From NCBI GenBank assembly GCA_017506865.1, contig JAFCMP010000109.1, positions 62,001-126,000 of the forward strand: a stretch of DNA of 64,000 nucleotides, written 5' to 3'. A program made the position numbers and the translations under genes. This document shows positions 18,610 to 60,800 of this stretch, piece by piece (the stretch's first letter is position 1; every line of letters begins with the position of its first letter). The notes under the pieces are model-generated. The model worked only from the letters and a program-made list of their open reading frames with translations. It was not told the DNA's origin and did no database searches. This DNA comes from Tribonema minus (Eukaryota; Sar; Xanthophyceae; Tribonematales; Tribonemataceae).

Positions 18610-18830
18610 GCACACAGCAGGTGCATGACGCGCACATTGCACCAGCTCGTACCTCACTCTCAATGACCGACTCCAGGAGCGCGAATGTCTTGCCGATCTT
18701 GCGTGGCGGCACCTTAGTGTACACAGCAGGTGCATGACGCGCACATTGCACCAGCTCGTACCTCACTCTCAATGACCGACTCCAGGAGCGCGAATGTCTC
18801 GCCGACCTTGCGTGGCGGCACCTTAAGGTT
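18610..18830 (-). repeat. Near-identical duplication of an exon 3' edge with its splice donor
   Basis: The last 60 or so bases of the exon 18986-18762, its GTACGAGC donor and the following cacctgctgtgtac sequence are repeated once, about 114 bp downstream in the transcript. The copies differ at only a few positions. This is the youngest-looking example of the exon-edge arrays in this window. Confidence 0.9.
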
Positions 18831-19059
18831 CTTGAGTCTCTCAGCATCAGCCTTTGCTTTGCTGAGGTTGGCGTCGACGTCGTCAGGCACAAGTGTCGTT
18901 AGCACAGCCTTGGCGCCGCCGTAGAGATGCTTGCTCTTACGAGCTTCTTTGTTGACGCCGACGATGTCGGCCAACGCCATTGCCACCTGCATATGTGGAA
19001 AGGGGCATGTGTAGGGTTGGACAAGGCATGTGAGTAGGTGTTGCAATACTGCACCTGTG

Positions 19060-19482
19060 CGCAGCATTGCACCAGCGCAGTGTCAGGACACCATGCGACT
19101 TTGAAAAGTCTGGGGATGCAGGAGCACTGCACGGCGTCTGCAGACTGGGGACTACAGGGCATTGTGGCGCAGTCTGCGGGATACAGGACACGCACATCTA
19201 CTGCTGAGGTTGTTACAGCACTGCACCAGTGCAGTGTCAGGACACCAGGCGACTTTGCAAAGTCTGGGGATGCAAGAGCGCTGCACAGCGGCTGCAGGCT
19301 GGGGACTACAGGGCAAAGCGGTGCAGTCTGCGGGATACATGACACGCGCCACTACTTCTGAGGTCGTTACACACACTGCACCAGTGCAGTGCCAGGACAT
19401 CAAGTGACCTTGCAAAGTCTAAGGATGCAGGAGCGCTGCACAGCGACTGCAGACTGAGGACTACAGGTCAAAGCGGTGCAGT
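19060..19482. repeat. Tandem repeat, 154-155-bp unit, about 2.7 copies
   Basis: The block tgcacc(a)g.gcagtg.caggacac starts at about 19068, 19222 and 19377. Each copy continues with gcgacttt.aaagtctgggg and ctgcagactggggactacagg. It lies upstream of the first recognised exon of the recombinase-like gene. No coding capacity was found. Confidence 0.9.
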
Positions 19483-21984
19483 TCTGGAGTTTGCAAGCGG
19501 GCGTACCTAGTCTGCAGGTATGCAGCGCAGGCCCTGCTGTGAAGTCTTGAGACGAGTGGCCTGTGGTCGTGTAAACTGGGGAGTGTGCGCTGGCGGCATC
19601 GCTGTAGTCCGCAGACTGGAGGCCGCTGTGCTGATGCGTGAAGAGTATGGCGCAAGGGTAGGATTGAGAATATAACACCGTCAGTGAGAATATAGTGCGC
19701 GTCACCCTGTGGTCAGTTGACTCCACGGCGGATCCCCTTATATTCCCAGGGCTGTGGGCTGCCGTTGGGTCAGTGCGTGGTCTATATTATGCCGCGCTGT
19801 TGTTTCAGCTCTATACGTTCGCGCCTGTTGTTGCGCGGGAACTAGCCCTTTCAAACGCCAAGTGTTCCAAAACTTCACACGTCACGTGACGGTATTGTTC
19901 CAACACTTTTCAACTTTGACAAAAGATCGACACGCTGCCCGCACGGAATTGATCAAGTAACCGGAACTTCAACCGATCGTTTTTTAGTATGCATTAAAAT
20001 GCCAATGGATGGCTACACAGCCAGCAATGCTTGCTCGATAGGAGTTGTTGCATCTGCAGCAGCCTCACCAGCACCGTCACCACCATCATCAGAGGTGTCT
20101 GCTGTAGCCACCTCACGATTTAAATTTTGCAGAACGGTGCAAGCGCCCCTACTGTGGCTGCTCTTGGCCCACACCCTCATCCTAACCAACCCTGATCCTA
20201 ACCCTAACCCTAGCGGTGTGCCGTTTTGTGTGAGATCAACCTCCCCAAGGCATGGTCTTGTGCTGCTGCTGCAGGTGACGTGCTGCTTCGGCGGCGGCGG
20301 AGGCGCGAGCGGCGGCAGCCTGCTGCAGGAGCTGTATGTAAATAGGGCGTATTTGCCGACACCATGCGGTTCTGTGCAACCGTAATGCTTTATTCATGCA
20401 TGGATATGACATCTTGAACGAAAGTGGTGCATTGCATGAATATGAGGGAAGCCCCTGCCCCTCTCGTAAGATGCTGATCACTGCTGTGCCGGAGCATTAG
20501 ATGACAATGGAGGCATGCATGCAGATACCTTCCCCCGGGAGGCGAGCAGTGCGTCGTGTGCACGATCAACATCCAGTACCCACACACCTGGGTTCATGAA
20601 ACTTTCAATACATGCGATGCGTGAGTGCGCAGCTACACACAGGCAAGGCTGTAGCTGTACATAGATCAAAGTGACATGCGGTACATAGAGCCCGCACAAT
20701 GGATGTTTCACCTTGCCTGTCGCTCGATCCCTCACCAATCACAGCCCACCTAGCGAGAGGAAATGCCGACATCCCCAGTCGAGAGATGGATATCAGATAG
20801 ATCAAGTCTGATGACACCTCTTGTTTGCCCTTTGGCTGCCCGAGAAAATGCCGTTGCACTTCGGGGATGACCCAGAGCTCTATGCCCCCCTCCTCCAGGA
20901 TGTGCAAGAAAGGATAGAAGGGTGCAAATCGCAGCGTGCAGATGCCGATGTGTTGGTAGCGCACATCACCACTGCACTCGCCACAGCTTTGAGTCGGGGT
21001 GCCGTCACAGGAACAGGGGGAGGCAAGCCAACGAGCAGCACAGGCAAAGGTGTGGGGTGCTTCGTTTGCCTGGCAAGTATGGCCGACCTCGCCTGTGGAG
21101 CTCGCCGTCAAAGCACGAGGGCTGCTGCTAAGCGGATCAGGGACTATGGCGTCGACCTGCAGCACTCGGATGTGGAGGACCATGTAAGCCGCACGTTGAA
21201 GTGCAACGGGATGGCGGAAAGTCTTATACGTGTGTGTGCATGGCATCGTACATTGATTCCGACTTTGCAGTGGTTTTTCTTGGTCGTCGCATCTTGGCAG
21301 TGTGTATCCGACTGTGTGTTGTTGTGTAGCTGTTGTTTAGTAGGCCAGTCAGCGAGCAATCCGGATCCATGTCCTTGGTCCGACACGTGTCCCTCGCTGC
21401 CTGTCAAGCCTACTGATGATTGTGCATGACGCTGTGACTTTGGCTCGTGGTGTGAAGGGCTGTTCGCTGACGCCCGATCGTAAGCCCTGCATAGCGGTCG
21501 GTCGTAGGCCGAAAGCGGCGTCCTGTTTGTCAAGTCTCCCGCGTACTCCCTGGCCGGTGGAGTAATGCGTGGTGCATGGCACAGCCCCCCACCCCCCATT
21601 GGACTCTGTGCTGCAGAGCAGCTCATCGCAGATCATGCACATCGGCAATTGCTGAGCCGCCTCTTAGTCATGCATCATCGATACACTCCAGCTGAAGTGC
21701 TTCCGCAACATCCCAGCTGACCTATGTCACTCAAACGCAGCAAGGGCAGCTAGCAGAGGCCAAGCATTGCCCAACCAGAGACGGCCTGGACCAGTATAAT
21801 GATGCCGCACTTGCGATTAATGCAGTCAAAGCACGCAGCCGCCGCCTGCACGTACGCTGCAGTCACCGCGTCACCGCCCCCGCCCCCCCGCCGTCGCCCC
21901 CCCTCACACACACACACACATGCACACACACACACACACCAACACACCTGCCCCCCCCCCCCCCCCCCCCCCCCGGCGCTGCAG
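19483..21984. other. Spacer with a possible unassigned gene fragment
   Basis: Holds the second cgtcacgtgacg palindrome (19880-19891) and a short telomere-type run (20189-20215). A plus-strand frame from 20821 contains ordinary protein-like sequence for about 60 codons (LFALWLPEKMPLHFGDDPEL and a following amphipathic segment) and then becomes low-complexity. I recognise no family and no convincing splice pair. An ATG at 21799 opens a Pro/His-rich frame into the MYB gene, but the CA and C runs look more like an intron. Confidence 0.35.
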
Positions 21985-22211
21985 CCTGCGGATGACGACC
22001 TGGAGCAGGAGCGGCCCGGCAAGCGCCGCCTCGCGTCCGCGTCCACGGAAGACGACGGCGACGCCACCGATGACCCCGATGACGACGACCAAGAGTACAC
22101 CAGCGACTCCGACTACTACGCGCTCGTCTACTCCAGCCTGAAGCGCACCGCCAGCTTCGGCAGCAGCGGCAGCGGTGGCGACGCGTCGAGCTCCAGCGCG
22201 CGCCGCGGCAG

Positions 22212-22242
<31 letters not shown>

Positions 22243-25200
22243 GGCGGCGCCAAGGCGCTCAAGCCCCTCAAGCCGCTCGGCGCGTGGAAGAGCCCGCGCA
22301 AGTGGACAGCCGAGGAGGACGAGCGGCTGCGGCACGTCGTCGCGCTGCGCGGCGAGTCGCAGTGGAAGCGCATCGCCGCGGAGGTGGGTCAATGTGCCGC
22401 GCCGCGCGTGCGCACGCGCGCTGCGAGCTGCAGCAGCGCAGCGCCGCGCGTCAGCGCTCCGCAGTCTGCGCGAAGCGCGTCACCGTAGGGCTAGAGCGTA
22501 GAAGTATGAGACATCGTGTAAGCCAACTGCCTTCAACGATACCACTCGGGTGAAGGCGGCGTGCACTTTGGCAGCCGGGCGGCGCGCTGCTGCAGCGTAA
22601 TGCAACCAACGCTCTAGCGATGAGCACCATCGGCACGAGCATCGATCATTATGGTTGAACTTGATGGCCTGCGTGCCGCATGCCTCAGCCCCCTCCTGCA
22701 CGTGCTGTGCCGATGCTCAGTCAGCAGCGGCGCTCCACCTTCGCACGCATACTCTTCAAACAGCAATAGAACATGTGCTGCTGCTGCTGCTGCACGAGCA
22801 CTTGTTGCCCGAGTCACAGGCACAGACCGCACCGCTGTGCTGGCGCGCACTCGTGCTGCGCATGTCATCCCTCCGCCCTGAACCCTAGCCCTACGCCTGA
22901 CTGCGAAACCGCCACCACGTGCTGGGATGCGCAACAACGTGCAGTAGTGCCTGCAGCGGTAGAACGAGGTTCTTTCACGTCATCGCTCTGCACGAAACCC
23001 CTAACCCTAACCCTCGCATGAAACCCCCTGACCCCAACTTCAACTCCATCTTCAACCCCGAAACCGCCGCAGGTCGGCACGCGCAGCCACGTGCAGTGCC
23101 TGCAGCGGTGGAAGAAGGTGCTACCGAGTCATCGCTGTGCATGAACCCCTAACCTAACCCTCGCACTAAAGCCCCTCACTCCAACTTCAACCCTGCGAAA
23201 CCCCCCTAACTCCAACTTCAACCCTGGAACCGCCTCCGCCGCAGGTCGGCACGCGCAACCACGTGCAGTGCCTGCAGCGCTGGAAGAAGGTGCTGCGGCC
23301 GGGGCTCAAGAAGGGCAACTGGACGGACGCGGAGGACGAGCTGCTCGCGCGTCTCGTCGAGGCCGGCAACTTCAAGAACTGGGGCGTCGTCGCCGCACAG
23401 CTGGCGGGCAGGACTTCCAAGCAGGTACGGTAACGTGCTGGTATGGTATGTGTGTGTCGAGCGGAGTCAGCTGACAGGGTACGCGCATGGCTCCGCTGGG
23501 CCTGCCGCGGCCCTCGTGTGTGGTCCCTGAGCGGCAGGGCACGCGGACGCCGCGCGCGGCTGCGCGCGCGCGCGCTGAGTCACGGGTAGTCCGCACTGCG
23601 CCCTGCGTTGTGCAATCCAGACGCTTTCAACGCGCCGCTGGCAGCGCCGCTGGACTCGCGCACGCTCACTGCAAGTGCCGCTGCCTTTTTGCCAGTTCGC
23701 CTCTCACGCATGCGCCGCTGTTTCCCATTGCCCCGCTTGCTGCTGTCTGCTCCTCCCCGTCACAGTGCCGCGAGCGCTGGCAGCACCATCTCAACCCTGG
23801 TGAGTGTCTGCGGTTGCATTTCACGTGCTTCAGAGTTGAAGTTGCACACACGTGCTGTGTGGTGGCAGCGGCTGCAAGTGTCAGCCGCCTTGTGTGTGTG
23901 GCAGGCTGCTTGTGCAGGGTCCCTGGGGCTGCTGCAACACACAGTTGCAAGCGCGCCCTCCAGCTCCGTGACAGGGAGCGTCGCCTACGTCCAATGTTGA
24001 ACATGCTACGACGTGGGAATCAGCTGCTTGACATGTGCCCCAAGCAGTGATGCATACTGTAGGTATGCAGCTGCATACACTCCTGTCACACCTCGCAGAC
24101 CTGGTGCCCTCGCACACGTCCATGCCGCCGGGCGTCGCGTCTGCTCACCCCTAAAAGACCTCTCTCGCTAAGCATGTCACATGAGGTATGCTCATCCCCC
24201 TCACAACCCCCCCCCCAACCCCCCCCCCCCCCCCCCCCAGACGCCCCCCCCCCCCCTCCTTTTTCCTCCTGCCCCCCGCTCTCGTGTAACTCCATACCGC
24301 CGCGCGTCGCGTCTGCTCACCTCTGAAAGCCTCTCCTGCTACGCACATCACACGAATAATGCTCGTTCCCCCCTTCCCCCCCCCCCCTCCATCTCCCCCC
24401 AATACACCTTCACGTGTCTGCACCCGCAGCCCCATCGCGTAACGCTGACCCCCCCCCCCCCCCACCCCCCTCCCCCGCCCCCCCTTCACGATCTCCGCGC
24501 CCGCGCAGCCATCAAGCGCACCGACTACACGCCCGCGGAGGACGCCGCCGTGCTGGCGGGCCACGCGCAGCTCGGCAACCGCTGGTCGCAGATCGCGCTG
24601 TCCGTCCCCGGCCGCACCGAGAACAGCATCCGCGCGCGCTACTACGTGCTCGAACGGGAGGCCAAGGAGGCAGCGGCGGCGGCGGGCGGCGGTGGCGGCG
24701 GCGGCGGCGGCGGCAGCGGTGGTGGCCGCCGCAGCAGCAGCGGCGATGCGCCGACGGCAGCCGCGCGCTCGCCTCGGCGCCCCCCCAAGGCTCCACGGCG
24801 GCGCGGCGGTGGCGGCGGCGGCGGCAGCAGCGGCGGCGGCAGTAGCCCTACCAGCGGCAGTGGCGGCGGCCGCAGGAACTCTGGCAAGCGCAGCAGCGGC
24901 AGCGGCGCACGCAGTGATGGCAGCAGCGGCAGCGGTGCAGGCGATCGCATGCGCGATGATGGCGGCAGTAGCGAAGGCAGCAACGGCGGTGGCCGTGCGC
25001 GCAGCAGCAGCGACAGCAGCAGCGGCAGCAGCAGCAGCGGCAGCAGCAACGGCAGCGGCGGCAGCAGCAGCGGCCCTCCCGCGCACGTGGGCGGCAAGCA
25101 GCTCAGCAAGCTGATGCAGAGCGCTGCGCCAGAGCGCAGCATCACCGCTGCAGCACCCGATGACCTGGCGGTGCCAGCGCGCATGAACGTCACCGGAGAG

Positions 25201-34593: not shown

Positions 34594-37500
34594 ATGGGCG
34601 TCTACAAAAAGAATCAGACCATGGAGGCGAAGCTTGACGACCTCATGAAAGATATCGAGGGCGAGGGCGAGGACGAGGACGAGGACCCAGACAACGACGA
34701 TTCAGATCACGAGGGTGATGCAGCTGAGGATGATGATGGATCCCCAGAAGCCGCTGATGATGATGACGCGGCTGCTGACAGCAAACAGGAGGCAGATGGT
34801 GATGCAGAGCAAACCTCAGAAGCGGGCAGCGCTGATGCCGACGCCAGCGAAGCAGCTGAAGCGGAGGAGGAAGCAGATGAGGAGGAAGCAGTTGTTGCTG
34901 ACACAAATGTAAGCAAGAAACGTTCCGCGGCTGAAGCAGCAGCAACAAGCGGCGGTGAGGTCAAGGCTGAACTCTCTAAGAAGGCCAAAAAGAGAGCTCG
35001 ATTGGAGGCAGCGGCGGCGGCAGCGGCGGCAGCGGCGGCAGCGGCAGCAGCAGCCGAGGCGGATGGCAGCGATAGCGAGGCGGAGGACTCAGAAGGCGAA
35101 GCAGGAGGAGACGGAAAGAAAAAGAAGCTGCGCTGGCGGGACCGGAAGTCCTTGTACGTCAATCAGCTGCCGTACGACGTCACTGAGGCCGAGGTGAGGA
35201 ATAGTCACGCGCGCTGTCTTGCACGTGTCGTGCGCACTCCAGCAGGGTCGCTTTGGCCCAACGCTCCCTGCAGCATTACCTCACAAGGCTCGGTCTCGGT
35301 CCTTGTGCAAGCGGTGCCGTGGCCCGCTGGCAGGCAGGTGGGCGAGCTGGTTATCAGCGATGCATGTGTGTCAAGCATGTGTGGCGTGTCCATCGTTCAG
35401 CGGCGCTGTGCATGTCGCTCTGACGACGCCAGACGCAGCTCTGGCCTGCTGCCTTGCAGTCCGTTTCTCATTTTTAATGCGACGTCTGTGCGTGCAAGGG
35501 CGCGTCAGCAACTGCAACATGCGTGCCATGGAGTTTTGCTGACTCAGCATGCCTCGGGGCGGCCTTACCTGATAGCACATGCGAAGGGGCGCAGATACGT
35601 AGACGTACATATGATACTGGTGCCCAACGACCATCTGCAACGCTGCTTCGTGGCACAAACTTCGTCCTGAGGTCAGGAAGGATGGAGGCATTGCCAAACG
35701 TGGCGCATGCCAAATCCTTGTATCATCGTTGCGCGCAGAACTAGCCCTTGTTTTCACAACAAAAGTCACCGCTCCCAAATCTGCTACTCCGAAGTACATG
35801 GCTTCACCGCGTCAATGCGACCCTTGTGCACGATCAAGCGCGACACTGATGTGCTGTGATGCGGTTGTGCACACACCTCAACCTGAACTTGAGGCATGGC
35901 GCCAGCTGCTGTGCTGTGTGTGCTGTGTTTCCCTGTGCGCACACACCCGCATTGTGGTGCCACGGTGGCATGTGCACACCCTTGTGAAGGCAATGGCCAG
36001 GCGCTCGAACTTGACATGTTTCAACTTCATCCACATCTTCAACTTCAATATGCCTGCAGCTCGCACTTGACATGTGCCGACTTCAACATCATCTTCAACT
36101 TCAATGTGCCCGCAGGTGCGGCAGCACTTTGAGGCGTGCCTGGGGGAGGGCGAGCAGCTGGTGGTGCGCTTTGTGAAGCACAAGAAGACGCAGGCGTTCA
36201 AGGGCGTCGCTTTCTTGGACCTGCCCTCGCAGCAGTCGTACACTGAGGTGAGTCACCCTTTGCGCGGGCCGTTTCTGTCTCGTTCAACAGTGCATGCCAG
36301 TTCGTGTGTATTTCTTTGGCTTGTCTCAGCACACCAGATAGTGTGCGCCTTGGAGTTATCTGCCGTCACGCACAGAGCTTGATGGCGGTCAGAAGTACTG
36401 AGCCTCTCAAAGCGCATGCCACGATGATCATCATGCCAGTGGCTATGGTGTGCAGCACTACACGACACATGCGCACACGCACCCTCACACAGACACGCGC
36501 GGGCGCGCTGCCCCTCCCTCCCATCGCACACACTTCTGTCACCGCCGCCCCTCTCCCCCTCCTCAGGCGTTGAAGTTGCAGCCGCACACGCACACGCACC
36601 CTCACACAGGTGTCCCTCCCTGCTGCACGCGCTTCCGACACCGCCGCCCCCTGCCCCTCCTCAGGCGTTGAAACCCTGGCGCACACGCACACACACCCTC
36701 ACGCAGACACGCGCGCTGTCCCCCCCCATCGCACGCACTTCCAGCACCCCCTCCCCCTCCTCAGACGTTGAAGTTGCACCAGAGCACGGTGGCCCCCGCA
36801 GCGCCGGGCGCGCTGCCCCTCCCTCCCCATCGCACGCGCTTCCGACACCGCCGCCCCCCTCCCTCCTCAGGCATTGAAAGCCCTAACGCACACGCACACG
36901 CACCCTCACGTATTCACGCGCGCGCTGTCCTCTCCGTCGCACGCACTTCCGACTGCTGCCGTCCCCTCCTCAGGCGTTGAAGCTGCACCAGAGCACGGTG
37001 ACGCCCGCGGCGTCGGGCGCGGGGCGCGTCATAAACGTGCGCCCCACCAAGGACCGCTCCGAGCTCGCGCAGCTGGGGCTGGAGAGGGCCGCCGTGGAGC
37101 GCAGCGCTGGCGCGCTGGTGGCAGCTGCCATCGCGGATGGGAGGATGCGCGAGGGGGATGTGGACGCGCGCGCGATGGACTTTCTCAAGAAGGTGAGTCA
37201 CTTGAAGTTGGAGAATGGACGTGAAGGACGGTGCTCTCCTGTCATGCGGCGGGCGTGGTGACCCCTGCGCGCTGATCGCTGCCGCCATTCGTGACGGGAG
37301 GAGGTGAGAGGAAGGCGTGCATGCGCGTGCGATGGACTGTCTCAAGAAGGTGAATTACTTGAATTTGCACAGTGGAGTTGAGTTCGGTATGTGCTCTTGA
37401 GAGTGCATGCGGAGCGGAGCGCGGGCGCGCTGGTAGCAGCTGCCATTGCCGACGGGAGGATACGCGAGGGGGGCGTGGAGGCGCGCGCGATGGACTTTCT

Positions 37501-38704
37501 CAAGAAGGTGATTCACTCCAAGTTGAAGAATGAGCTTGAAGAACTGCTGCGCGCAGCTGGCGCAGGGTGCGAGCGCAGCTGCAGCCAAGAAAGTCTGCGA
37601 GTCCGCACGCGCTGCATGCGTTGGCGATCGCTGGAAGTTCCTGCGTGGACGTCAGGCGCTCCGGCGCTGCCCGGCTTCTCGGACGCCAACCCTGCCGACG
37701 GCACGGTAGCGTGTGAGGTGCCCCTGCTCTCATTGCCATCGCTGGTGCACAAGGCCGCCGGCTACACGCGCGCTGGTGCCGCTGACGACGCCTGGGAGCG
37801 GCACGCACACGCGATCTTCAATCGCAGTCACGATTTACACGACGTCATGCTGCGTCCACGCCCACGCCAGCCGCGGCCGCGCAGTCAATTACGCGCCACG
37901 CGGCCGCGCTCCGCCCTCAGCGAGCAGCGCTCGGCATCATCGCCGACTACGGCTGCTGCACGCAGGTACAAAGAACCTCAATTCGCGCCGTCGCTCACGC
38001 TGCACGCCCTCCGCCGCTGCCCGCACGCGATGCCGCGCGCCGCCGCGCCGCTCCGCGCGACAGGTGCCGCACAACGTCTCAGCGTTTGCCGCCGACCGCA
38101 GCTGCCCGCAAGCACATGAAATCTCTGCTCATGCCGGCGCTCACGCTGCGTGCCCTCCGCTGCCCGCCTGCGGCGCCTTGCGCGCTCGGCAGGTGCCGCA
38201 CGACGTCGCGCTGCAGGCGCTGACGGACTTTGCGGACGTGGACAAGGCGGGCGTGGAGAACCGCGCGTCGTTCTTCATGGGCATCCTGCTGCGCCGCTAC
38301 CGCAACCCCGAGGGCCCCACGGGGAAGAGCCCCGCGCCGCGCAACACGGGGCGTGGCAGCGGCAGGGGGCGCGGCGGTGGCGGAAGGGGGGGCGGCGGGG
38401 GGGACGGGCAGAGAGGGGGGGGAGGAGCGGCAGGGGGGAGGGGGGGAGGGGGGGGGGCAGGGGGGAGTTTGGGGCGGGCAGGGGAGGCGGCGGCAGGGGG
38501 GCGTTTGCGGCGGGGGCGCGAGGAGGAAGGGGGGGGTTTGCGAGGGGCGGGGGCGGCAGGGGCAGGGGGGAGGGCGGCGGCGGTCGAGGAAGGGGGTTTT
38601 CGGCATCACGAGGGGGGAGGGGGGGTGGCAGCAGGGGAAGGGGCGGAAGGGGGGGCGGAAGAGGAGGCGGCAGAGGCGGTGGCCGCAGTCAGGGCAGGGG
38701 CTAG
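34594..38704 (+). CDS. RNA-binding protein: RRM, an hnRNP-Q-type helical domain and an RGG tail
   Basis: Exons 34594-35193, 36116-36247, 36974-37192 and 38193 onward join in phase 0. Order of parts: a 150-residue Asp/Glu/Ala-rich acidic leader with KKRSAAEA and KKAKKRAR nuclear-signal-like patches; an RRM with RNP2 KSLYVNQLPYDVTEAEV and RNP1 KGVAFLDL; a linker INVRPTKDRSEL; then VPHDVALQALTDFADVDKAG and VENRASFFMGILLRRYR, which resemble the acidic helical domain of hnRNP Q-type proteins; then Gly/Arg-rich sequence. Likely nuclear or nucleolar pre-mRNA or rRNA binding. In the entered frame exon 4 reads to 38750 as Gly/Ala/Glu-rich. The recognisable RGG tail (FSASRGGRGGGSRGRGG, stop 38702-38704) is in another frame, so one base in the G runs at 38370-38460 is probably miscounted or lost. 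Confidence 0.85.
36562..36990 (+). repeat. Exon-edge array: five copies of the 5' edge of RRM exon 3
   Basis: The acceptor and exon start (cctcctcag|gcgttgaagctgcacc) at 36967-36990 is preceded by four diverged copies whose CAG ends lie near 36566, 36663, 36763 and 36870, a regular spacing of about 100 bp. Each copy includes the pyrimidine tract, the AG (with one A-for-G change after it) and the gcgttgaa start. The third also keeps gttgcaccagagcacggt. The spacers are rich in cacacgcac. Confidence 0.9.
37100..37520 (+). repeat. Exon-edge array: three copies of the 3' edge of RRM exon 3
   Basis: The exon end (...gcgatggactttctcaagaag|gtgagt, ending 37192) is repeated with ends at 37349 and 37507, spacing 157 and 158 bp. 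The third copy keeps an open frame for about 30 codons (SAGALVAAAIADGRIREGG and on to AMDFLKK) with its GT intact, so it could serve as an alternative exon. The second has lost the frame. Confidence 0.9.
37990..38225 (+). repeat. Exon-edge array: two copies of the 5' edge of RRM exon 4
   Basis: The block gctcacgctgc..gccctccgc, then ggcaggtgccgcac.acgtc occurs at about 37991-38085 and again at 38128-38212. The second is the real acceptor. The first has an equally good CAG|GTGCCGCACAACGTC. Confidence 0.8.
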
Positions 38705-41900: not shown

Positions 41901-44900
41901 GTGGTTCTAACCCTAACCCTAACCCCGATGTCGTGGTCGCGCGTCGTCGGCGCTCAGCGCGCAGCGCGCCTACGGCACAGCGGGCAGCGGGCGCCACATG
42001 CAGATGACGATGTGTTGTTATGTAGGCTGCGCTGGGCCGCGTGCAGGCCCCACGCCACGGTCCGACTTCAACTTCAACTTCAAGTATTCATCCATCGAGC
42101 GCATCGTGTGACGCACACCGCGACGCGCCGTCGCCCGCTTCCCGTGCGCGCAGGTCATGACCATGCACCGGCGTTTCAACTGCTGCTGCTGCGCGCTGCC
42201 CGGGTGCGAGGAGGACGTGAGGATCTACAGCGGCAAGCACGCGCGCGAGGACGAGAGCAACGAGAACCTCATCGCCAAGGTGAGCGGCGGCGCTACGTAT
42301 GGCAGTGATCGCAGCTGCCTCAGTGCTCAACGGCTGCGGCAAAGCCGCCGCGGGGCCGCCTTCGCGCTTGTGATTTCTGCCTGTGTGGTGATAAGATTAG
42401 GCTCAGGGCTAGGGAAGCACCGCGCGACGCTGAGAGCAACGAGAACCTCATCGCCAAGGTAAGCGGCGCTGACCCTAACTGATGCTGACCCCAGCCCTAT
42501 CATGGAAACGAATCAAAAGATTGTAGAGCTCTTGGTGGCAAGGTGTGGTCAGCCGTCAAACTGAGTGCCTTCCACTGATGACCGTGGTCGCCGCTGCTGC
42601 GGCAATCGGCCACGAGTCAGACAGTGTCACCATATCCACAGTAGTCAACAGACGATTGTGACGAGAGCAACGAGAACCTCATTATCGCCAAGATAAGCAG
42701 CGCCATGTATGGCAGCGATCGCGCCTGCCTCCTCAGCGCTCAACGGCTGCGCCTGCTGGCTGCGGCGGAGGTGCCGCCTTTGTGCTCGCGAGCTCTGCCT
42801 GTGTGGTGACAGTATTAGGGTTAGGGCTACATTTGGGGCTAGGGTTGAGGTCGAGATCTGCGCCGTGATGGCTGCCAGAGCGTCGCTGCCGCATCAGCGG
42901 GGGGGTTTCAAGATCGTCACAGGGAGCAGGGAGCGCTGCTGCAGTGCCGAGCACGCGCGCGACGACGACGGCAACGGAAACCTCAATGTTATAACGAGCG
43001 GCGCCATTGCAGCGTCAGCGATTGGCAGCCGCGCCAAGACCCTTCTGTCAGGGGATGGCGTTATGACAGCCTCAACGGACTGTCACATTGTTGTAAGCTC
43101 GTTGGAGGATGCGGCGGCGGGACGCGAGGACGCTGCCGCCGCTGCAACGTGAAGTGCGGCAGCACTTTCACCGGATGCCAAATCGGTGGCGGCGGTAAAA
43201 GGCGACGCAGTCGCGAGTCCTGGCCCTTAGACACCTCAACGGATACTCACGGAGGCGCCAGCCGCCGTGAGTGCGATCGCCAGGCAGCGACCAGCGGATA
43301 CGCTCCAGTGGCAGGCAGTAGCAGAAGGGGGGCGCAGCTGTGAGCCGTGGCGACCAGCAATCGCCGCAACGGCGGCGTCACGGCAATGTGGCGCGAGTGG
43401 GTCCGTAGTGTTAGGGTTAGGGGTAGGGCTAGGCTTAGGGTTTGAGCGACTGGGGCCTGAGCGCTGCCGTGGTCTGAGCGTTGCCGTGCGGTGGCTATGC
43501 AGGGCGCCGCTGCGAGCACGTGATCGCCGACTGTCTGGCAGTATGCACACCTGCCGCGCTGCCGACTCATGGAAAAAGTGCCATCACATGCCACGCCGCT
43601 TGCCGCTCTGTCACGAGTAGGGGCTGGGGTTTGAGGAAGGGCAGGGCTGGGGGGTTTGACTTAGGGCATGAGGATCAAATTGGGACGGGGATCAGGTTAC
43701 GGCGGGATGAGGACTACAAGTATCGACAGGAATCGCAGAGCGTAGCGCAATTCTGAGAAATCCCCCCCCCCTCCCCCTCCCCCCCTCCCCGACCCCCGCC
43801 GCTGACAGGTCACGCAGCCCACGTGGGGCGGCGGCTGCCACCCCGTCATCAACATGGACGCGCCCAACGGGCACCACGAGCTGTCCGTGACGGGCCCGTG
43901 CTGCATCGGCCAGTGCTGCACGAGCACCTTCGACGTCATGAGCACGGACGGCGCGACGCCCGTGGGCAACGTCGTGCGCAAGATCAAGGGCATCGGCGAG
44001 GTGCTGCGCAAGGCCGTCAGCGACGCCGACAACTTCAACATCACGTGAGCGCCGCCTCTCCCCCATGTAGCCCCCATTTGTTCCTCCGTTTGTGAGCGCC
44101 GCTTCAACATCAACGTCACGTGAGCACCCCCGCCCTGCCCCCCTGTCAGCCCACCTTGCTCCCCCCCGTTTGTGAGCGCCGCTTCAACATCACGGGAGCG
44201 CGCCCCCCTGCCCCTGGCGTCCCCCCTGTCGCCCCCCCTTGCTCCCCCCCGTTTGTGAGCGCCGCTTCGACATCACGTGAGCGCCCCCCCTGCTGTCCCC
44301 CCTGTCAGCCCTTCTTGCTTCCCCGTTTGAGAGCGCCGCGGTGCGTGCTGGCCCCACACCCCGCCCCCCCTTGTCTGCTCGTCACGCTCATATCTCTCTC
44401 TCTGTCTGTGCGTGTGTGTGATTGGAGTTTCAGCGCATGCCCGCTTCGTCGCGCTGCGTGCCGTTGTGCGCGCGCGGCGCATGCACGTTTTTGTGCAGCT
44501 TTGCGTGTCATGGAGTTGCGGCTGTGCGCTGCCCTCCTGCGGATCACGGCCGCGCGCGCGTGTGAGGGCGGCAAGGGATGCGCCTCACACGCGGGCGAAT
44601 GGTCCCCTCGGCACCGTGTGTCGCTGCTGCTGTGTGTACGGGGTACAAATACCGCGCGTGCGCGAGCAAGCGTTGTCTGGTGACGTGCCTCAGAGAGTGA
44701 CGCCCCCCCCCCTCCCCCCTGTGAACCCCCGCGTGCAGCTTCCCCCAGGACCTGAAGGTGGAGACCAAGGCGTCCGTCATCGCCACCATGTTCCTGCTGG
44801 ACTTCATGTGAGTCACGAGGCATGACCCCAATCCTGATCTCAATACTGAGTGCGATGGCGTCTCCTCCTTTCTTTCGTTGATCGCCAAGTCTCCTTCAAG

Positions 44901-46653: not shown

Positions 46654-46971
46654 ATGATTGCTCAAGTTTTATCACGGCGACTTCTGCTCATGCTCTGCAC
46701 TGCGTACATGACATTCCTGTGTGCGGACTTGGCTGAACTGAATAAATCGACTACATTGGCATTTATGTCCATGCATGAATCCACTGCACCTCTTCTTCAA
46801 CATCAGGCCCGATCCTGGGCACGTTCCTCATCCGTGTTAGCTGTGGCCTGCTTGATCGCCGAGACCGTGCCTCGAGGTCTCATCAATAGTGTACGCGGCC
46901 ACGGGGACGCTGTTCTGATAATACTTGCTCTTCTGTCCACACCGTTGGCGGCACTTCTGCGGCAGCAATGA
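46654..46971 (+). CDS. Small hydrophobic ORF
   Basis: 105 codons from an ATG that follows directly on a consensus acceptor (cttctctaacag). The peptide has a hydrophobic N-terminal segment after three basic residues (MIAQVLSRRLLLMLCTAYMT), a polar middle and a hydrophobic C-terminal stretch (AVLIILALLSTPLAALL), so it could be a two-pass membrane protein or an exon of one. No family is recognised. Composition is unlike the neighbouring low-complexity frames, which is the main reason to list it. Confidence 0.35.
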   Translation: MIAQVLSRRLLLMLCTAYMTFLCADLAELNKSTTLAFMSMHESTAPLLQHQARSWARSSSVLAVACLIAETVPRGLINSVRGHGDAVLIILALLSTPLAALLRQQ

Positions 46972-47117
46972 ACTTCAAAGCTCCAGTAACAGCGGACATT
47001 CAGGGGTTTTCCGCGACGTTTATTCGCGCCAGTTGTACAACGAGGACGCCATCGCTCTCTTAGTCAACAACAGCACCCCGCGACAGTTCATCAGCAAGGA
47101 CATCAGTATTGGGCAAG

Positions 47118-49752: not shown

Positions 49753-49762
49753 AGCGTGACTG

Positions 49763-49783
49763 TCGTGGTGAGAATCACCACGA
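49763..49783 (+). other. Hairpin 10 bases after the TAG at 49750-49752
   Basis: TCGTGGTGA, loop GAA, TCACCACGA: a 9-bp perfect stem in the 3' flank of the plastid-type gene. It lies between GTGA (49756-49759) and a GA at 49786-49787. It could be a 3' UTR element. Confidence 0.7.
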
Positions 49784-51878: not shown

Positions 51879-54800
51879 CTACCGCACCCACGGGCTGGCG
51901 AGGCCGAGCGGCTTGAGCGCCTCCATGATGCCCTTGTTGACGGCGCGGCTGACAACGACCTGCGGCTCGTCGGCGCGGATGGGGATGACGTCGTGCTGCC
52001 GCCGGAAGGCGGGGCTGCGGCGCGGCGGCAGCAGCAGCAGCGGCAGCAGCAGCGGCAGCAGCAGCAGCAGCAGGGGGCAGCACACGAGTTGAGCACCGCT
52101 GCCGTGCCTGCTCCAATGCTGAGAGCATGTTGTCGAGGGGCCGCCCAGCAGCAGCGATCAGCATACGAGCTGAGTGCCATCGCCGCGTCTGCTCATGCGC
52201 GGGTGCATGCGCAATGTGTAGCATGCTTAACAATTTTGTCAACACAGTGTGCAACACATTCATGGTAGGCGGCAGACTGAGGCTACGGAGCGGTTTCGTT
52301 TGCCGGGGTTGGCAAGACCTCCTGAAGCCCGGGTTGCACCATACAGACCATTGTTTGGGTTGATGATGGCCAGATGCCCTCTAGTCATCCTGCGCATGCG
52401 CGCCGTCGTTGGGAGTGGATGAAGGCTTAGTCAAAAGAAGAAGAAAAAGAGGCTTACGATACACAGCGCCCGCTTCAAACGCAACCTTCAAGCTTCATCT
52501 CGTTGCAGCAGCAGGTTGTGCGTACATGCCCCCGCTACAAAATCGGTTTCTGTTTGCAAAAAGACAACCTACCCCAGTGAACCGTTCCGTGCGAGCGCGT
52601 TGGCGGCCTCGAGGCCGCTCACAAAAGCGCGCTCCTGGCACAGTCCCTTGGCGCCGTGCTCCCGCTCCCCCATGCGCACCTGAGGGGTTTGGGTTAGGGG
52701 TTTAGGTCATGAGGGGGCAGATTAGGGTTGATTTCAAGTGCACCTCCAGGCAACAGGGCAGCTTCAGTGACAGAGGCGAACCCACAGAGTCGCGGGACGG
52801 GGCTAAGCGGTTTCAAGTATCGCAACAGTCCTGCTCTCTGCGCGCGCCCACGAGCATGTGTGACGTACATGTGCACTGACACCGCTGGCGCTCCATGCAT
52901 ATGTACCTCCACATGCGCAGCAACAGACCGTAGCTGCAAGAGTCTGCGCGGCGGCGACGGAGGCGTGCATCGGTGGGAGGGCGCGGCAACGAGGTGGCAG
53001 ACCGACAGAAGGTGACTGCCGGCGATGGACAGAGCGATGTTGAAGTTGCAGCAGCAGTGCGCGCGGACCGCTGAGGTCCTTCGGGCCATCCGCATGCTCG
53101 ACATGAGCTGCCTGACGCGCAGACAAGACAAGAAAGTTTTTGTTTATGTTTTTGTGTCACACACGGCTGAGACCGTGCTGCCTGGCGCTGTGCACGAGCG
53201 TTTAGGGCCCCCCCGCTTTCATAGTACTGCTGCTGGGGGCCTCAAGGGTGGGCTGAAGCCGCTGCAACGTATATGGCACGCCGGTCGGACGTCGTTGGAC
53301 GTCAGATGTTCACTAAAACAGTTCGATTGCGCGGCAATTCAGCAGCGGCATGCGATGCAGCAGCGCCGACGTGGCAATCTGAGGGTCTGCACCTCGGCGC
53401 TTGGTGCTGCACATGACTTCAACTTGAAGTGCGCGCTGCGGCGCTCACCCAGTCCGCGGAGCACACGAAACTGCGCAATCAGTACGCAATAAGTGCGCGC
53501 GAGCTGAAGCGCTCAGCGTGCCGGAGAAAGGTGCTCTCGCAGTCCCCTATGCACCTGGGGGGTGGGGATGTCTCCTGCCGCATGCTCTGTCGCGCAGTGG
53601 CAAACAGAAGCTGATGCGATGCATCGCGACTTCTGCCCCTTCCAGAAACGGGCGGCGCGAGCCGCGCGCTGCACATTACTTCAACTTGAAGTGTCTGCTA
53701 TAGCGCTTACCCCGTCCCCGGTGCACACGAGGTTGGGGACGGCCGTCTGCAGCGGCAGCCGCACGCCGTACGAGCCCGGTCGATTTTCTTACATTACTTC
53801 AACTTGAAGTTCCTGCTAAAGCCTCACCCAGTCCCTGGTGCACATGAGGTTGGGGGCGGCCGTCTGCAGTGGCGGCCATGAGCCGTACGAGCCTGGCGAA
53901 TTTTTGTATACATTACTGCAACTTGAAGTGCCTGCTAAAAAAACAAGAACTTACCCAGTCCCCGGCGCACACGAGGTTGGGCACAGTCGTCTGCAGCGGC
54001 GGCCGCGAGCGATAGGAGCCCGGTGAAAAAAAGGAGACGGCACCGGGATAGCGCACCACGTGGGCGTCCACCGCCTGTACAGCACAGTTGAAGTAGCGGA
54101 TCGTTTGTTGAGGTTTCAGAACGCACACACGCAGGGCGAATGGGGGTGTGAGGGGAGGTGTCAGAGCAGTCACCGGTCTGCAGCTGAGGTAATCGTCTGA
54201 AATCAAGTTCAACCTTGAAGTTGTGTCGTGGCGCCACGTGCCCGCCGACTACAAATGAGGCCCGGGAAAGGGGTCATCATCATGAGGGGCTGTCCCCCGT
54301 GCCCCTCCCCTCCCACTTTGTCGCCATATGGGGGTTTTGTAGAGGGGGATGCCAGGGAACAACACGAGGGCGGCTTGAGGCGACCAGATGTGCTTTTCAC
54401 CAGTAAGAACATGGGGAAGCCGGCGCAGTCTACTACCGCCTGTCAACATGGGGAGTCAACGATGCGCGCTCGCAGCTCGATAAGAATGGCAAGAATGGCA
54501 AGACCACGCTCGCCCTTCACCAAGCACGAGCGCCCAGGGGGCCACGACTGACCTTGACCTTGGCGAACCCCGGCACCGCCTGCGGCAGCAGCTCCTGCAG
54601 CAGAAGTTCAACAATGTCCTCGTCGCTCAGCGCGAGCAGCGCGCCGGCGTTGTAGAAGTCCGCCGCGACGACGCTCCCCTGCGGCGTCTCGCCGCCCCAC
54701 AGCACTGCGGGGTGGGAGAGTCACAAAAACTGGAAGAAGTTGGGGTCATGACAAAAGCGGCAGACAAAGTCCCATGCAGGATCTTAAACCCCACAGCACC

Positions 54801-57800
54801 GCACGGTGGGAGAGTCACAGGAATAAGTTGAAATTATGATGATGGCAGCGGACTGAAGTCCCTTGCAAGATTTCGTCGCCCCATAGCGCGCTGCGCGGTA
54901 GGAGAGTCGCGGGGGATCAGAAGAAGTTGAAGCCGGTCATGGCGCCGAGGCGAAGCGAGGAGGTCACGCGGCGCCAAGGCGCAGGTGCTTGCGCGGAGTA
55001 CGGAGTCACGCGCGTGGCCTGACATGTGTGCTACCCCTACCTACCGTACAGCATCAACGCTCAGCACCGCAAGCTCCGTGGCGGGCCGCGTCGCCTGGTG
55101 CCCGCCGCCATGCACAGCCCCCTGCGGCGTCTCCGAACCGCACGCAGCAGGCATGCACGTCACAAAATCAACGGTCGACAGAGATGTGTACGAGAGACCT
55201 CTCATATCGTTCGAGAAAGCTCATCAGGAGGTAGGCAAGTGCGTGCCTCCGTCAGCCTTGCGGCGCTCGCCCGCGCGCACCACGTGGACGCGGCGGTCAG
55301 GAGGAGAGTCACCCGTGGGCGCGCGGGGACGCCTGCCTGCGCTTGCTCTGTGCAGTGCGGACGTCGAGGGCGGCGCTCGGCAGCACAGAGATGAGCAGCT
55401 CGGATGATCCGTACGGCGTCCGAGAAGAAACGACGCGCGTATGAACCGGGCACCTTCGCACACGCTGGCTTTGCTTCTTTTCGACGTCATTCCGCAGGTG
55501 GTGCATGCGCCGACATACGAGTACTGCGCCGCGCGACAAGTGCGCAGGCATGTCCTCCAGAGACGCGCCAGACACCCAAGCACGCGTCAACTGAGCCGCA
55601 TCGCGGCCGCGCCGCCACTCACTCGTTGTCCTAACCCTGATCCTAAAGCCTGATTGCCGCTGCTGTGAAAGCGCGTGCCGGCGACTGCGTGCCGTAATGC
55701 GCGATGCGGCACACCCGTCAACATCATCCTGGCACCGAATGAGGTGTTGATCCCCTGAGCCGCTTCACAAACACGCACATGCAGACACTCACTGTCATTG
55801 TCCTGCAGCTGGTCCAGCATGAAGAACGTGCCGCCTGCGCCGCGCAGACCCGCGAAGCGCGACAGCACGTTGGCCGGCGTGTCCGTCGCGACATAGCCGT
55901 CCAGCCAGATCCTGCGCGGGCGCGGCAGCAGCAACGGCAGCAGCGGCGGCAGCGGCGGCGGCGGCGGCGGAGGTGCGAGCGTGAGGTGCGTTGTTGAGCG
56001 CTGCACACCGAGCACTGCCACATACAACACGCACAGCACTACCCCGTGAGCACATTGCAGCGAGCACACTGCGCGCTGCCGCTGCTGACGACGGGGCGCT
56101 GCGGCATGCAGGGCTTTTAAGGGCTGTCGCCTCGCGATGTGTTTCGCGGAGCGTGAAAAGGCGTGTGGCCACGATGCGTTCAACGGCAGTGATGATGAGG
56201 TGCCCGGCACAGCGCCCGCACGCACGAAACGCAAACTCGCACGCATGTGCCTGTAGGCCTCGTTGGCACGACGTCGATCGTTAAGCGACGCCACTGGCCT
56301 TCACACGTACATACCTAGTGGCCAAAAAGAGTTGATTGTGTTGGCTGGCGCGGGCGGCCGCGAGCGCGGGTAATACAATCCTGGTAGCCTCGACGTCAGC
56401 CGTGCACCTTCTTGTTTCATGGCCCGATCGTGCTGTGCAATGCACCGGCACGAGCCCTTGTACTACGTACATCCCTTCTGACCGTGACGGCGATCGTGTG
56501 CTACCTACATACATGCCTCGTGGCCATGACATCGATCGTGTTGAGCGCTGCAGCAGCCGTGAGCTCTTGAACTACAGTACATTACTTGTGACCACGACGG
56601 CGATATTGTGCTACCTACATGCATACCTCGTGGCCATGACGTCAATCGTGTTGAGCGACGCAGCGGCTGTGAGCTCGGGGCACGCCTTGGCGAGCGCCGG
56701 GCTGCCGTTGACGATGGCGCGCATGCCCTTGGCACCCACCGCCAGCACACAGCCGTCCAAACCATCCAGCGTCCCCTGCACGTGCGCACGATGAACAGGG
56801 CGGTGAGAATCGCATAGGAGTAAGGATGCGGTGGGCTGAGACGAACGCGCTTGCGTGTGATGCGCCCATCAACATGGCAAGTTGTACTTCCAAAGTACTT
56901 TGTTTGCATACTTTGTCACACAGCATTGACGATGGCGCGCATCCCCTTGGCACCCACCGCCAACACACACCTATCAAGACCGTCGAGCGTCCCCTGTGCA
57001 GTGAAACGGTTAAAAGTAAAAAAAGTAGGGTCAAAATGAGGCACGCTTGCGTACGATGCGCCGATCAACGTATTGACATACTTTGAAGCCTACTTTTGAT
57101 GGGAGAATAACGTTGACGATGGCGCGCATGCCACTTGGCGCCCACAGCTAGCACACAGCCGTTCAGACCATCCAGCGTCACCTGCACGTGCGCACGATGA
57201 ACAGGGCGGTGAGGATCGCGTGGAGCTAAGGATTGCGCGCGTGCGCCCCTCGCTCTCGAAGATCAAATCACATCATTCTTCAAATACATGAAACTTCAAG
57301 TACAAGGACTTGAAGTTCAAGTATTTCACAAGCTCTGAGGAAGTGCAACTTGGAGTGTGTACTTGCCCTGGTGCCGTCGCGCTGCCGGTAGGTCACAGCC
57401 TCAACTCTGCCGCCCGCGCCCAGCGCCACGCTCTCCGCAAACGTGCCGCCCATGACGTTGATGTCCGTCGTCGTCTGCAGCCGCGCCGCCAGCGGGGCGA
57501 TGATCGCCTGCGGCGCAGAGTGCGGCAATCACAACAAAAGCACAGGGGTCACATGTGCAGGCTCGCTGGAAGAGCAAAGTGCGCGCACACGATAGATCAG
57601 TAGGTGGCGCAGGCGCGGCGGGCAACCGAGACTGCGCAAGTTGCCCCCGCTGCCCAGGCAGGAGACTCTCGAGCCCAGTGATCCCTGTGAGGTACTCCAG
57701 CGCTTGTTGCCTAACTCTAACCCTAACCCTAACCCTAACCCTAACCCTAACCGCTAACCCTAATCGGGTGATGAACGCGCAGCGTGCGCCTCGAACGACG

Positions 57801-60800
57801 CAGCGGCGCCGCGCTGGTGAGCACTGCTGCACTGGTGCGCGGCTCTGAGCCGCTGCGTTTGAAAGCAGAATAAAGCGTGGCGATCGCCTGCAGTGCAGCG
57901 ACGGTGTGATAGCCCACGGGGAGCAGCGAACGCGGTGCGTGATCGAAAGTGCGCCGAATGGAGGCGCGGCGGCGGGCGGCGCTGCTAGGATGCGTAGCGC
58001 TGAGTCGCTGCGTGTGCATACACATGCACACAGAGTGCCCTGCCGTGAGGGGTGGGCGCTGCCTCTTTCGGGCGCTGCAGTGCTCAGCCGCCAGATTGTG
58101 GCAGCGCTCATCTGTCTCCCGTGCGCGCCTCTGCCGCCATCGTGCGTGAAGCTGGTGCGCCTGCGGCTCACGCACACGCTCGCCACGCCGCAGCTGCCAC
58201 CGTGCCGCCATGGGCGGGTTGCACGCGCGCGGGAGCGAAAGCGGGGCGCTCATCCCTTTTGTGCCTCCGCAATGGGCGGCTTCGTGATCCACCGCACGTC
58301 GAGCTGAAAGTTGGGCTTAGCCTGACCCTAATCTTAACCCTAACCCTAACCGTACCTCCGCAGTGGACGGCTTGTTGAGCCAGCGCAGGTCGAATCTAGG
58401 GCTAGGATTAGCCAAACCATAACGCTAGGTTTAGCCTAACCCTGACCCTATCCCTAGCCCGAACCCTAGCGTACCTTCACGATGGACGGCTTCTTGATCC
58501 AGCGCACGTCGAACGACGTCTGGTGCGCGAGCGCGTAGTAGTAGAGGACCTTCATAGCGACGGCAGCGACGGACAGCGTTTTGATCCAGCGCATGTCAAA
58601 TTGTAGCCTAACCCTAACCCTAACCATAACCCTACCGTACCTCCGCGATGGACGACTTCTTGATCCAGCGCACGTCGAACGACGTCTGATGCGCGAGCGC
58701 GTAGTAGTAGAGGAGCTCCATGGCGACGGCAGCGCTCAGCTCCTCGGGGGCCTTGAACAGGCCCACCAGCAGCGTCGGGCGCACAAAGTCGTCCACCTGG
58801 GGGGGGGCGGCCGTGTGCAGAGGGGTCAGAACTTCAGGTGCAGTTCAGAGCTTTAACCCTTTCAAGGTTCCAGAGTGGAGCCGCTACAGTAGCGCAAAGG
58901 GTGCGGATTGAAACTTGAACTCTGATTCGGCATGGCGACTCTCAAGTAACTCCAAATTGGGGGCCACTTGGGGGTACCGGAGTAGAGGGCGTGTCGTGGT
59001 GTGCGCGGGCGTTTGATGCATGAGAACAGGCGGTTTCAGAAGTTGCGCGGGCATGTTGAAGTGCAGGAATGACACAGCGCTGGACAGCACAGCTCCGCGG
59101 AGGTGGTCGCATTGCGAGGCAGAGAGCTACTCGCAACGCACGAGTTGAAAGTTTTGGGCGCGTTGACAATCGTCACTGCAGATGCATGAAATCACCGGCA
59201 CCGGACCACCGGCTTGGATATGTTGCATCACTGTGCCCGCACCGCCGGCTGAGACCTGCGTACGCGCAATGCCATTGTCAGCGAGGCCGCTACGAGCGAT
59301 CACCTGGGTGACACACCGCAGTGACAGTGCTATAGTGTATAATGAAACTTTAAAAGATTATGGTATACCAAGTTTAGGAATGCTACCAGTGACTTTGGTT
59401 CTTGAGTTGGGTTTTAGGTACAGGACGGAAACCGTGGTCGCTCTGAGCTCGCCCAGACCCTAACCCTGCAAGTTAGGGTTCTGAACCTAACTCAACCCCC
59501 CAACGGTAAACGTCAGCCAACGCGCGTACGCACCAGGCGCTTGAACATGGGCGTGCGCAGGAACAGCTTGTGCGCGGTCATCCTGTCATACGCTGCAAAA
59601 TGCCTTTGAGACGCAGCGACCCTGAACCTAACCCTGACGCTAACCGCAACCCTGACCCCCTACACCTAGGCATTAACAACCCTAACCCTAACCCTAACCC
59701 AAATTGTCAGCCCCCGCACAACCACGCACCAGGCGCTTGGACATGCACATGCACAGGAAGAGCTCGTCCTCGGTCATCCTGTCGCACGCCGCAAGATACC
59801 TTGTTAACGCAGCATTTTCAACCCTAGACATCAGCCCCCGCCAAAGCACCCACCAGGCGCTTGGAAATGCGCATGCGCAGGAACAGCTCGTGCGCCGTCA
59901 TCCTGTCATATGCCGCCAATCGCCAGGGCAGCAACCCCAGCTTTAACCCTTTTCTAGTCATTAACAACCCTAACTTCAACCCTAAGTGTCAGCCGCGCCG
60001 CGCGTACGCACCAGGCGCTTGGACATGCGCATGCGCAGGAACAGCTCGTGCGCCGTCATCCTGTCGTACGCCGCGAAGGTCTCCTCGTCGCGCCCGTAGT
60101 CCAGCATGCCGTACAGCAGCCCCGCCATGGTCACCCTGTCGCTCAGCGGCAGCCGCTTGAAGTTGGTCACGGTCGCTAGCACCTGCACGGGCGCGCGTCG
60201 CACGGCAGGGAGCATGAGGCGCGATTTCGCAATGTTACTAGTGCAGAGCAGAAGGGCATGCCTGCAGTGCGCCTAGGGACGTGTACATAAACGTAAGCGG
60301 TGATGGCTGTAAGCAGGCCCCTGCCATGGTCACCCTGTTGCTCAGCGGCAGCCGCTTGAAGTTGGTGACGGTCGCCAGCACCTGCGCAGGCGCGCATCGC
60401 ACGGCATGTGGCACGCTTTCGCAACGTTATGTGCGTACAACGGAGGTGGGTGCAGAGCAGAGGGGTGCATGTGCGGTGCGCCTTGTGGCGTGCAGTGCGT
60501 CGATCAATCGCCCCAGACCTAACACCTGTCCGAGCGGCAGCTGCTGCAAGACGTTCGCTGTCGCCAGCAGCAGCATCGCGAGCCAGGCGGCAGACGTGCC
60601 CGCGCAGCCGTGCACAGCAGCATGTATGTGAGACACCAATCGCAATGGAGACAAATGCCCAGTTTGATGGTTCCGCATGCCTCCAGCGGTGCGAGAGCGC
60701 GCTCCAGAGCGCATCGTCACAGCCGCAGCACACACCGCAAGTGCCGGCGCTGCAAGCTGCACACGGCAGCAGCTGCAGCAGAAAGTTCAGATCAGGACAT

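Follow-up and report, generated by a model that had tools for sequence, protein, structure and literature searches.

Why do introns in this stretch of the genome of the yellow-green alga Tribonema minus (Xanthophyceae) contain copies of the exon edges which they adjoin? The question bears on two open problems: how introns lengthen, and how cells ignore intact splice sites nearby. The window, i.e. the whole stretch of DNA analysed (64,000 nucleotides, positions 62001-126000 of contig C109), belongs to an assembly of 158 Mb in 554 contigs. An initial annotation had described introns built from tandem copies of neighbouring exon edges with their splice sites. Here we confirm that tandem copies of exon edges in the adjoining introns are real.

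Genes and exon models

Exons were mapped in six genes with a spliced-alignment script. Three of the genes reside in the window. The FAD oxidase gene (minus strand, 52-62.5 kb) matches the annotated protein 'oxidase [Tribonema minus]', and the translation of its 11 mapped exons was identical to annotated P0001. The models of a scramblase (PF03803, Pfam; 4 exons) and of an hnRNP-Q-like protein (PF18360, Pfam; 3 exons) are partial. Their exons were mapped with peptides assembled from the window itself and are supported by splice sites, open frames and Pfam matches. The other three genes are ABC transporter paralogs. Contig C146 carries two head-to-head ABCB paralogs, ABC1 and ABC2. The 19 exons mapped in ABC1 reproduced annotated P0121 exactly. 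ABC2 was mapped with this ABC1 protein and then hand-corrected at exon 2 (GC donor), at exon 8 and at one 2-nt artefact exon. In ABC4 (contig C335) 11 exons were mapped over 9.5 kb out of about 18 kb and equal P0123 over the 773 residues covered. Internal introns are GT-AG by reading, except one GC-AG intron in ABC2.

The window genes were those pre-selected in the initial annotation, and ABC1 and ABC2 were picked after the locus had been seen to be repeat-rich. ABC4 was found by homology, although the listing already hinted at two copies. The sample thus consists of six genes, three of them ABC paralogs. A six-frame Pfam scan additionally located a MYB-domain region near 24.5 kb on the plus strand of the window; such scans gave no match on the minus strand of the window at 18-28 kb or on the plus strand of locus L014. 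Rfam and tRNA scans returned no match. A self-trained gene finder over-predicted and was dropped.

Several features of these loci were noted on the side. ABC2 has a 439-bp intron (L029:849-1287, contig positions 30849-31287) with GTTGA at both ends which is missing from ABC1, either by gain in ABC2 or by exact loss in ABC1. As an introner it was rejected: its genome matches are itself and one 73% fragment, so it is not multicopy. In ABC4 a 528-bp intron (L030:1350-1877) interrupts sequence which ABC1 and ABC2 carry as one 240-bp exon. A reverse transcriptase match (PF00078) just below the Pfam cutoff lies within a 6-kb ABC1 intron (L024, minus strand, about 7.1-7.7 kb). The window also contains long near-palindromic inverted repeats at 8160-8591 and 13388-13820.

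Exon edges are copied in tandem into adjacent introns

At 41 of the 120 internal exon edges of the six genes, the adjacent intron holds diverged direct tandem copies of that edge. The first five genes contributed 30 of 100 edges, 18 on the donor and 12 on the acceptor side; ABC4 contributed 11 of 20. Within the window, edge arrays were present at 7 of 20 internal edges of the FAD oxidase, 2 of 6 of the scramblase and 2 of 4 of the hnRNP-Q-like gene. At 37 of the 120 edges the alignment runs 3 bp or more across the junction, and at the other four it stops 2-30 bp short. Repeat pairs were direct in 126 cases versus a single inverted one.

Further copies were seen beyond the 120 edges: at two edges of an ArfGAP-like gene on locus L013, at one edge at 18.7 kb and, by reading, at one edge of the hnRNP-Q-like gene. 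With the latter two added to the 11 mapped edges, the window has 13. The initial annotation had counted about thirteen, in five genes; the number stands, the genes are four. Three more arrays (19062-19482, 22904-23294 and 24119-24400) adjoin putative exon edges and are outside this tally. The arrays and the associated repeat are, by window position:

18607-18825, minus strand: 109-bp tandem duplication, 97% identity, crossing a 3' exon edge (between ..VIESE and GTACGA) with 63 bp exon and 46 bp intron; edge predicted from open frame and donor
19062-19482, no strand assigned: 154-bp array, about 2.7 copies; exon edge putative; array also in a paralog on contig C192
22904-23294, no strand assigned: 155-bp duplication upstream of the MYB-domain region; exon edge putative
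24119-24400, no strand assigned: 172-bp duplication upstream of the MYB-domain region; exon edge putative
36472-37021, plus strand: array, 5' edge of hnRNP-Q-like exon 36974-37192; about four upstream copies
37096-37544, plus strand: array, 3' edge of hnRNP-Q-like exon 36974-37192; two downstream copies
37942-38185, plus strand: duplication adjoining the 5' edge of hnRNP-Q-like exon 38193; the copy near 38065, seen by reading, is AG followed by GTGCCGCACAACGTC
42225-42985, plus strand: array, 3' edge of scramblase exon 42154-42279; three downstream copies
42499-42653, no strand assigned: dispersed repeat of about 155 bp between copies of the preceding array; at least 40 further genomic matches at 85-91% identity among the matches listed
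44030-44339, plus strand: array, 3' edge of scramblase exon 43809-44044; unit 75 bp, three downstream copies
53406-54027, minus strand: array, 3' edge of FAD oxidase exon 53955-54074
54695-54908, minus strand: duplication, 5' edge of FAD oxidase exon 54553-54704
56425-56676, minus strand: duplication, 3' edge of FAD oxidase exon 56627-56775
56706-57233, minus strand: array, 5' edge of FAD oxidase exon 56627-56775
58261-58734, minus strand: array, 3' edge of FAD oxidase exon 58641-58796; spacer of telomere-like repeats
59501-60077, minus strand: array, 3' edge of FAD oxidase exon 60012-60182; three downstream copies
60115-60492, minus strand: array, 5' edge of FAD oxidase exon 60012-60182

Clusters were called with at least 18 distinct triplets as a guard against low complexity, a minimum period of 25 bp and a maximum distance of 1500 bp, and those outside the first-to-last mapped exon were left out of the counts. 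The annotated exon 9 of ABC1 was scored as a copy, not as an exon. For the donor of FAD exon 4 a 166-bp pair was used instead of a 79-bp pair running through the spacer. The hnRNP-Q-like duplication at 37942-38185 entered the statistics as intron-only and is not among the 41 edges. Shuffled controls, which the initial annotation had proposed as a check against chance, bore it out: the five genes contain 40 clusters, against a mean of 1.6 in 10 dinucleotide-preserving shuffles of their introns.

Recognisable copies, native ones included, make up 11.8 of 47.0 kb of intron (25%). Without the spare units, total intron length in five genes would fall from 40.2 to 31.7 kb, and in this sense the earlier proposal of intron lengthening holds. 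Amplification across most introns, also claimed, is true when introns are counted, 42 of 60 holding some recognisable copy; counted by edge it affects about a third. Self-alignment recovered arrays where the initial annotation had placed them, several of them contiguous and without insert. Some spacers are other DNA, i.e. the dispersed repeat at 42499-42653 and the telomere-like stretch at 58.3-58.6 kb.

A genome search was carried out with four arrays. Those of FAD exon 9 and of the hnRNP-Q-like gene matched their own locus only. The FAD exon-4 array matched its own locus and a telomere-like repeat on contig C3. For the scramblase array the dispersed part was the inserted repeat only. This repeat, possibly a short interspersed element, had 1702 first-look candidate matches in the genome. 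It was looked for in the other mapped genes and not found, and as a seed of the arrays it was rejected on this ground. Telomere-like CCCTAA runs occur in FAD gene introns at 57696-57763, 58318-58634 and 59660-59705, and contig C3 starts with the same repeat (71-248). This suggests a TTAGGG telomere with interstitial pieces.

The repeated unit joins exon and intron

Unit length in the six mapped genes was 75-273 bp with a median of 128 bp, of the order given originally (about 75 to 290 bp). Over the 41 edges the median exon share of a unit was 47 bp and the median intron share 82 bp, with a minimum of 40 bp. The position of the edge within the unit was non-uniform (KS p=9e-6; donor side 0.003, acceptor side 0.0002). 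The 37 crossing edges gave the same picture (exon share median 44, intron share median 77, minimum 40; KS p=3e-5). The minimum intron share, a pattern spotted after the fact, was 47 bp in five genes and became 40 bp once ABC4 was added. On the acceptor side it may reflect the need of a working site for its branch point and pyrimidine tract.

Copies of a 5' edge lie upstream of the exon and copies of a 3' edge downstream, as reported initially. This is no separate finding. A tandem duplication across an edge which leaves the exon whole allows no other place for the spare copy than the intron side; one-sidedness is thus a geometric consequence and not extra evidence.

Copies decay like neutral DNA

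In most arrays the divergence between copies is about 9-33%. Differences between exon and copy by codon position were 0.100, 0.077 and 0.193 (56 copies), and intronic columns, with overlapping pairs counted in, differed at 18.6%. If a copy changes freely by about 9%, the exon only at its third positions and both intron copies freely as well, about 0.09, 0.09 and 0.18 are expected by codon position and 0.18 in the intron. The splice dinucleotide, GT or AG, was kept in 43 of 51 copies (84%), where about 83% is expected at 9% change per base. Thus the copies decay as neutral DNA, and the decoys look neither removed nor preserved. The initial annotation had considered them a source of decoy splice sites. 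Intact sites are indeed there; since they are lost at about the neutral rate, no function is indicated. That the exon-proximal site is the one in use rests on annotation and homology. The 43 alignable copies with GT or AG beside exons of conserved proteins constitute a natural experiment on splice-site choice.

Arrays gain and lose units between paralogs

Both 109-bp units of 18607-18825 align to one single place in five paralogous loci, L002-L006, over 110, 101, 73, 73 and 58 bp. L002 is 88-93% identical to the gene at 18.7 kb over about 1.5 kb. Because all five loci have one place for both units, the second unit is most simply explained as a recent gain in the gene at 18.7 kb, and the single-copy ancestral state is thereby seen in relatives in this one case. 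By reading, the junction of the duplication shares at most 1 bp. A repair signature, one of the possibilities raised initially, finds no backing in this one clean junction.

A change in the opposite direction is indicated in the ABC genes. The end of ABC1 exon 7, together with its donor, matches the first intronic copy of ABC2 at 54 of 55 exonic and 70 of 75 intronic positions. Its match to the ABC2 exon end is only 46/55 and 37/65. The next copies after exon 7 in the two genes also correspond (51/55 and 66/74). At this place the exon end and first copy of ABC2 are less alike than ABC1 and ABC2 are. Loss of a unit in ABC1 is therefore the likeliest course, with the working edge of exon 7 apparently derived from a former spare copy. 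Conversion from another paralog is a possible alternative. Other arrays are common to ABC1 and ABC2 and are therefore older than the split of these genes. The annotated ABC1 exon 9, 48 bp long and with a 78-bp intron behind it, is a copy of the start of the next exon; it is in frame and has AG and GT at its ends. Copy number differs between ABC1 and ABC2 arrays and, for the 109-bp unit, among paralogs, as in minisatellites. Together with the 97%-identity duplication missing from five paralogous loci, this supports the earlier suggestion that the process continues.

Recognisable duplications are biased toward exon edges

The placement of clusters was compared with a null model in which segments of the observed unit length were placed randomly per gene, after introns had been shortened by their arrays. 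Segments inside one exon or spanning a whole exon were excluded. Detection weights of 1, 1.17 and 2 were tried, 1.17 being the value from simulated decay. In the six genes 41 of 51 clusters involved an exon, with 17.9, 19.7 and 25.9 expected at the three weights (P=7e-6 at weight 2). Five genes gave 30 of 40 (expected 13.0, 14.3 and 19.2; P=0.0003 at weight 2), ABC1 and ABC2 together 19 of 27 (expected 8.9, 9.8 and 13.1; P=0.00005, 0.0002 and 0.015) and ABC4 11 of 11 (expected 4.9, 5.3 and 6.7; P=0.0001, 0.0002 and 0.004). With unshortened introns the expectation for ABC4 is 3.6 of 11, versus the 4.9-6.7 with shortened ones.

A strict count admitted only clusters that cross an edge. This left 37 of 51 in six genes (P=0.0009 at weight 2) and 27 of 40 in five genes (P=0.008 at weight 2). 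For ABC1 and ABC2 it was 16 of 27 (P=0.011 at weight 1.17, P=0.17 at weight 2), and for ABC4 10 of 11 (P=0.0035 and 0.031, respectively). At E<=1e-10, five genes had 24 exon-involving versus 4 intron-only clusters. Exonic columns of repeat pairs were 88.0% identical, intronic columns 81.4%. When exons were masked, 17 of the 21 edge arrays of a first edge set were still detected; this set, 21 of 54 edges with only part of ABC1 and ABC2, has been superseded by the full count. The edge bias is supported, but it depends on few genes.

In an uncontrolled comparison of gene-rich with other DNA, eleven random loci had 9 clusters in 110 kb, and the argument does not rest on them. They were part of 16 random loci, from which five were set aside after the counts had been seen: L013 and L014 (5 and 9 clusters), later found to be genic, and the satellite-like L018, L019 and L022 (1, 1 and 7 clusters). 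Loci L025-L028 were unscanned. In L018, L019 and L022 dense tandem or satellite-like arrays cover 45-89% of each locus.

Origin of the edge copies

On balance we consider it probable that recurrent small tandem duplications, edge-biased among those that can be recognised, leave neutrally decaying spare copies in introns. Small duplications with a median of 128 bp would recur in T. minus genes, and the still-recognisable ones would straddle or adjoin exon-intron junctions more than intron length predicts. In each event the exon and its real splice site would stay intact while a spare exon edge, splice site and intron end enter the intron. The spare copy would then decay like neutral DNA. Arrays would expand and contract in the manner of minisatellites, and a contraction could turn a former spare copy into a working exon edge. 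The bias would be mutational, duplications starting near splice junctions, and not selective. Decoys may be tolerated because sites pair across short exons and the nearest site is chosen. What the account builds on was demonstrated above: copies in direct tandem that decay neutrally, a polarised gain, turnover between paralogs and a statistical edge bias.

The bias would be deceptive if duplications fell uniformly and edges stood out via short introns and longer-recognisable exon copies. Geometry alone yields 17.9 of 51 exon-involving clusters and a twofold detection bonus 25.9, exonic columns are better conserved, and the strict count in ABC1 and ABC2 is compatible with uniform placement at that bonus. 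Yet 41 were observed, 37 by the strict count with P=0.0009 at the same bonus, the simulated bonus is just 1.17, and 17 of 21 arrays survived masking of the exons. We regard uniform placement as rather unlikely. Alternatively, duplications might occur evenly and be kept where a junction gains spare native context or a reserve exon edge. The intron share of at least 40 bp at all 41 edges, the non-uniform edge position and the apparent reuse of a copy as an exon end in ABC1 point in this direction. Purifying selection against harmful duplications would also leave a minimum intron share, however, and for the copies as for their splice dinucleotides the rate of decay is close to neutral. Selective retention appears improbable.

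Use of the copies as alternative or mutually exclusive exons is very improbable. In the annotated ABC1 protein the 48-bp copy does count as an additional exon, which keeps the frame and is bounded by AG and GT. Yet the copies are partial, not whole exons under coding constraint, their codon-position pattern fits unconstrained sequence, and smallest unit lengths over 30 edges fall into the three classes modulo 3 as 9, 13 and 8. Mobile elements, either introners or long target-site duplications flanking short interspersed repeats, could be suspected from the dispersed repeat of about 155 bp in the scramblase array. Its absence from the other mapped genes, the several contiguous arrays without insert and the FAD exon-9 and hnRNP-Q-like arrays, which match their own locus only, make such an origin extremely improbable. 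An assembly artefact, of which no sign was found, is practically negligible: in most arrays the copies have diverged by about 9-33%, and some, differences included, are common to paralogs elsewhere.

A further-reaching form of the duplication account, which we put forward tentatively, is that splice junctions in T. minus are hot spots of tandem duplication through a process tied to transcription or splicing, e.g. stalling of polymerase or spliceosome, with a module of about 50 bp exon plus at least 40 bp intron. Junction-seeded arrays would then be a main engine of intron growth and splice-site turnover. Given the density of edge copies, along with a polarised gain and an apparent contraction, resequencing of related strains would allow one to measure how fast introns grow and splice sites are replaced.

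Comparison with known systems

Introners are dispersed multicopy elements, reportedly treated by Gozashti and colleagues in 2022. Like them, the arrays alter intron content, which introners do genome-wide. Unlike them, the same sequence was not found at many genomic places for any of the four arrays searched as an array, and two of these match their own locus only. Internal gene duplication is said to have been described by Gao and Lynch in 2009. It and the 'inter-boundary' matches of Exonize (PMC12343006, as far as the accessible text goes) share with T. minus the within-gene duplication across exon-intron boundaries; compared with what that text describes, T. minus has edge-focused arrays at a third of the junctions and a minimum intron share. 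In the brown alga Ectocarpus, according to the accessible part of the source, tandem repeats are relatively even across the genome and exonic splicing enhancers resemble those of mammals. The former may contrast with T. minus; the latter fits the idea that exon-wise pairing could make decoys tolerable.

Introns can be gained through tandem duplication of an AGGT-containing exon segment (Rogers; Hellsten; review PMC3443670, accessible part). There, too, a small tandem duplication yields extra splice sites. In the form of Rogers it is exon sequence that is duplicated, and the two copies flank the new intron; T. minus units differ in not being purely exonic, with at least 40 bp of intron, and no new intron is needed. 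The pattern had initially been taken for an undescribed system. The duplication type itself is already known from single cases; for this density of edge copies, the edge bias or edge-focused arrays no description was found in the accessible literature, which included few subscription papers.

A close single case is the potato RdRp gene, in which one boundary-crossing tandem duplication made a new intron (Ma et al., 2016, PMC4974935, accessible text). As in T. minus, the end of an intron was duplicated with the start of the exon and the copies carry acceptor signals, and the annotated ABC1 exon 9 resembles the potato outcome. T. minus differs from this one event: copies occur at 41 of 120 edges in six genes, as direct head-to-tail repeats over exon and intron at 37 of them, on the donor as well as the acceptor side, and they normally lengthen an existing intron. 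What goes beyond ordinary duplication is the excess of exon-involving clusters and an intron share that is never below 40 bp.
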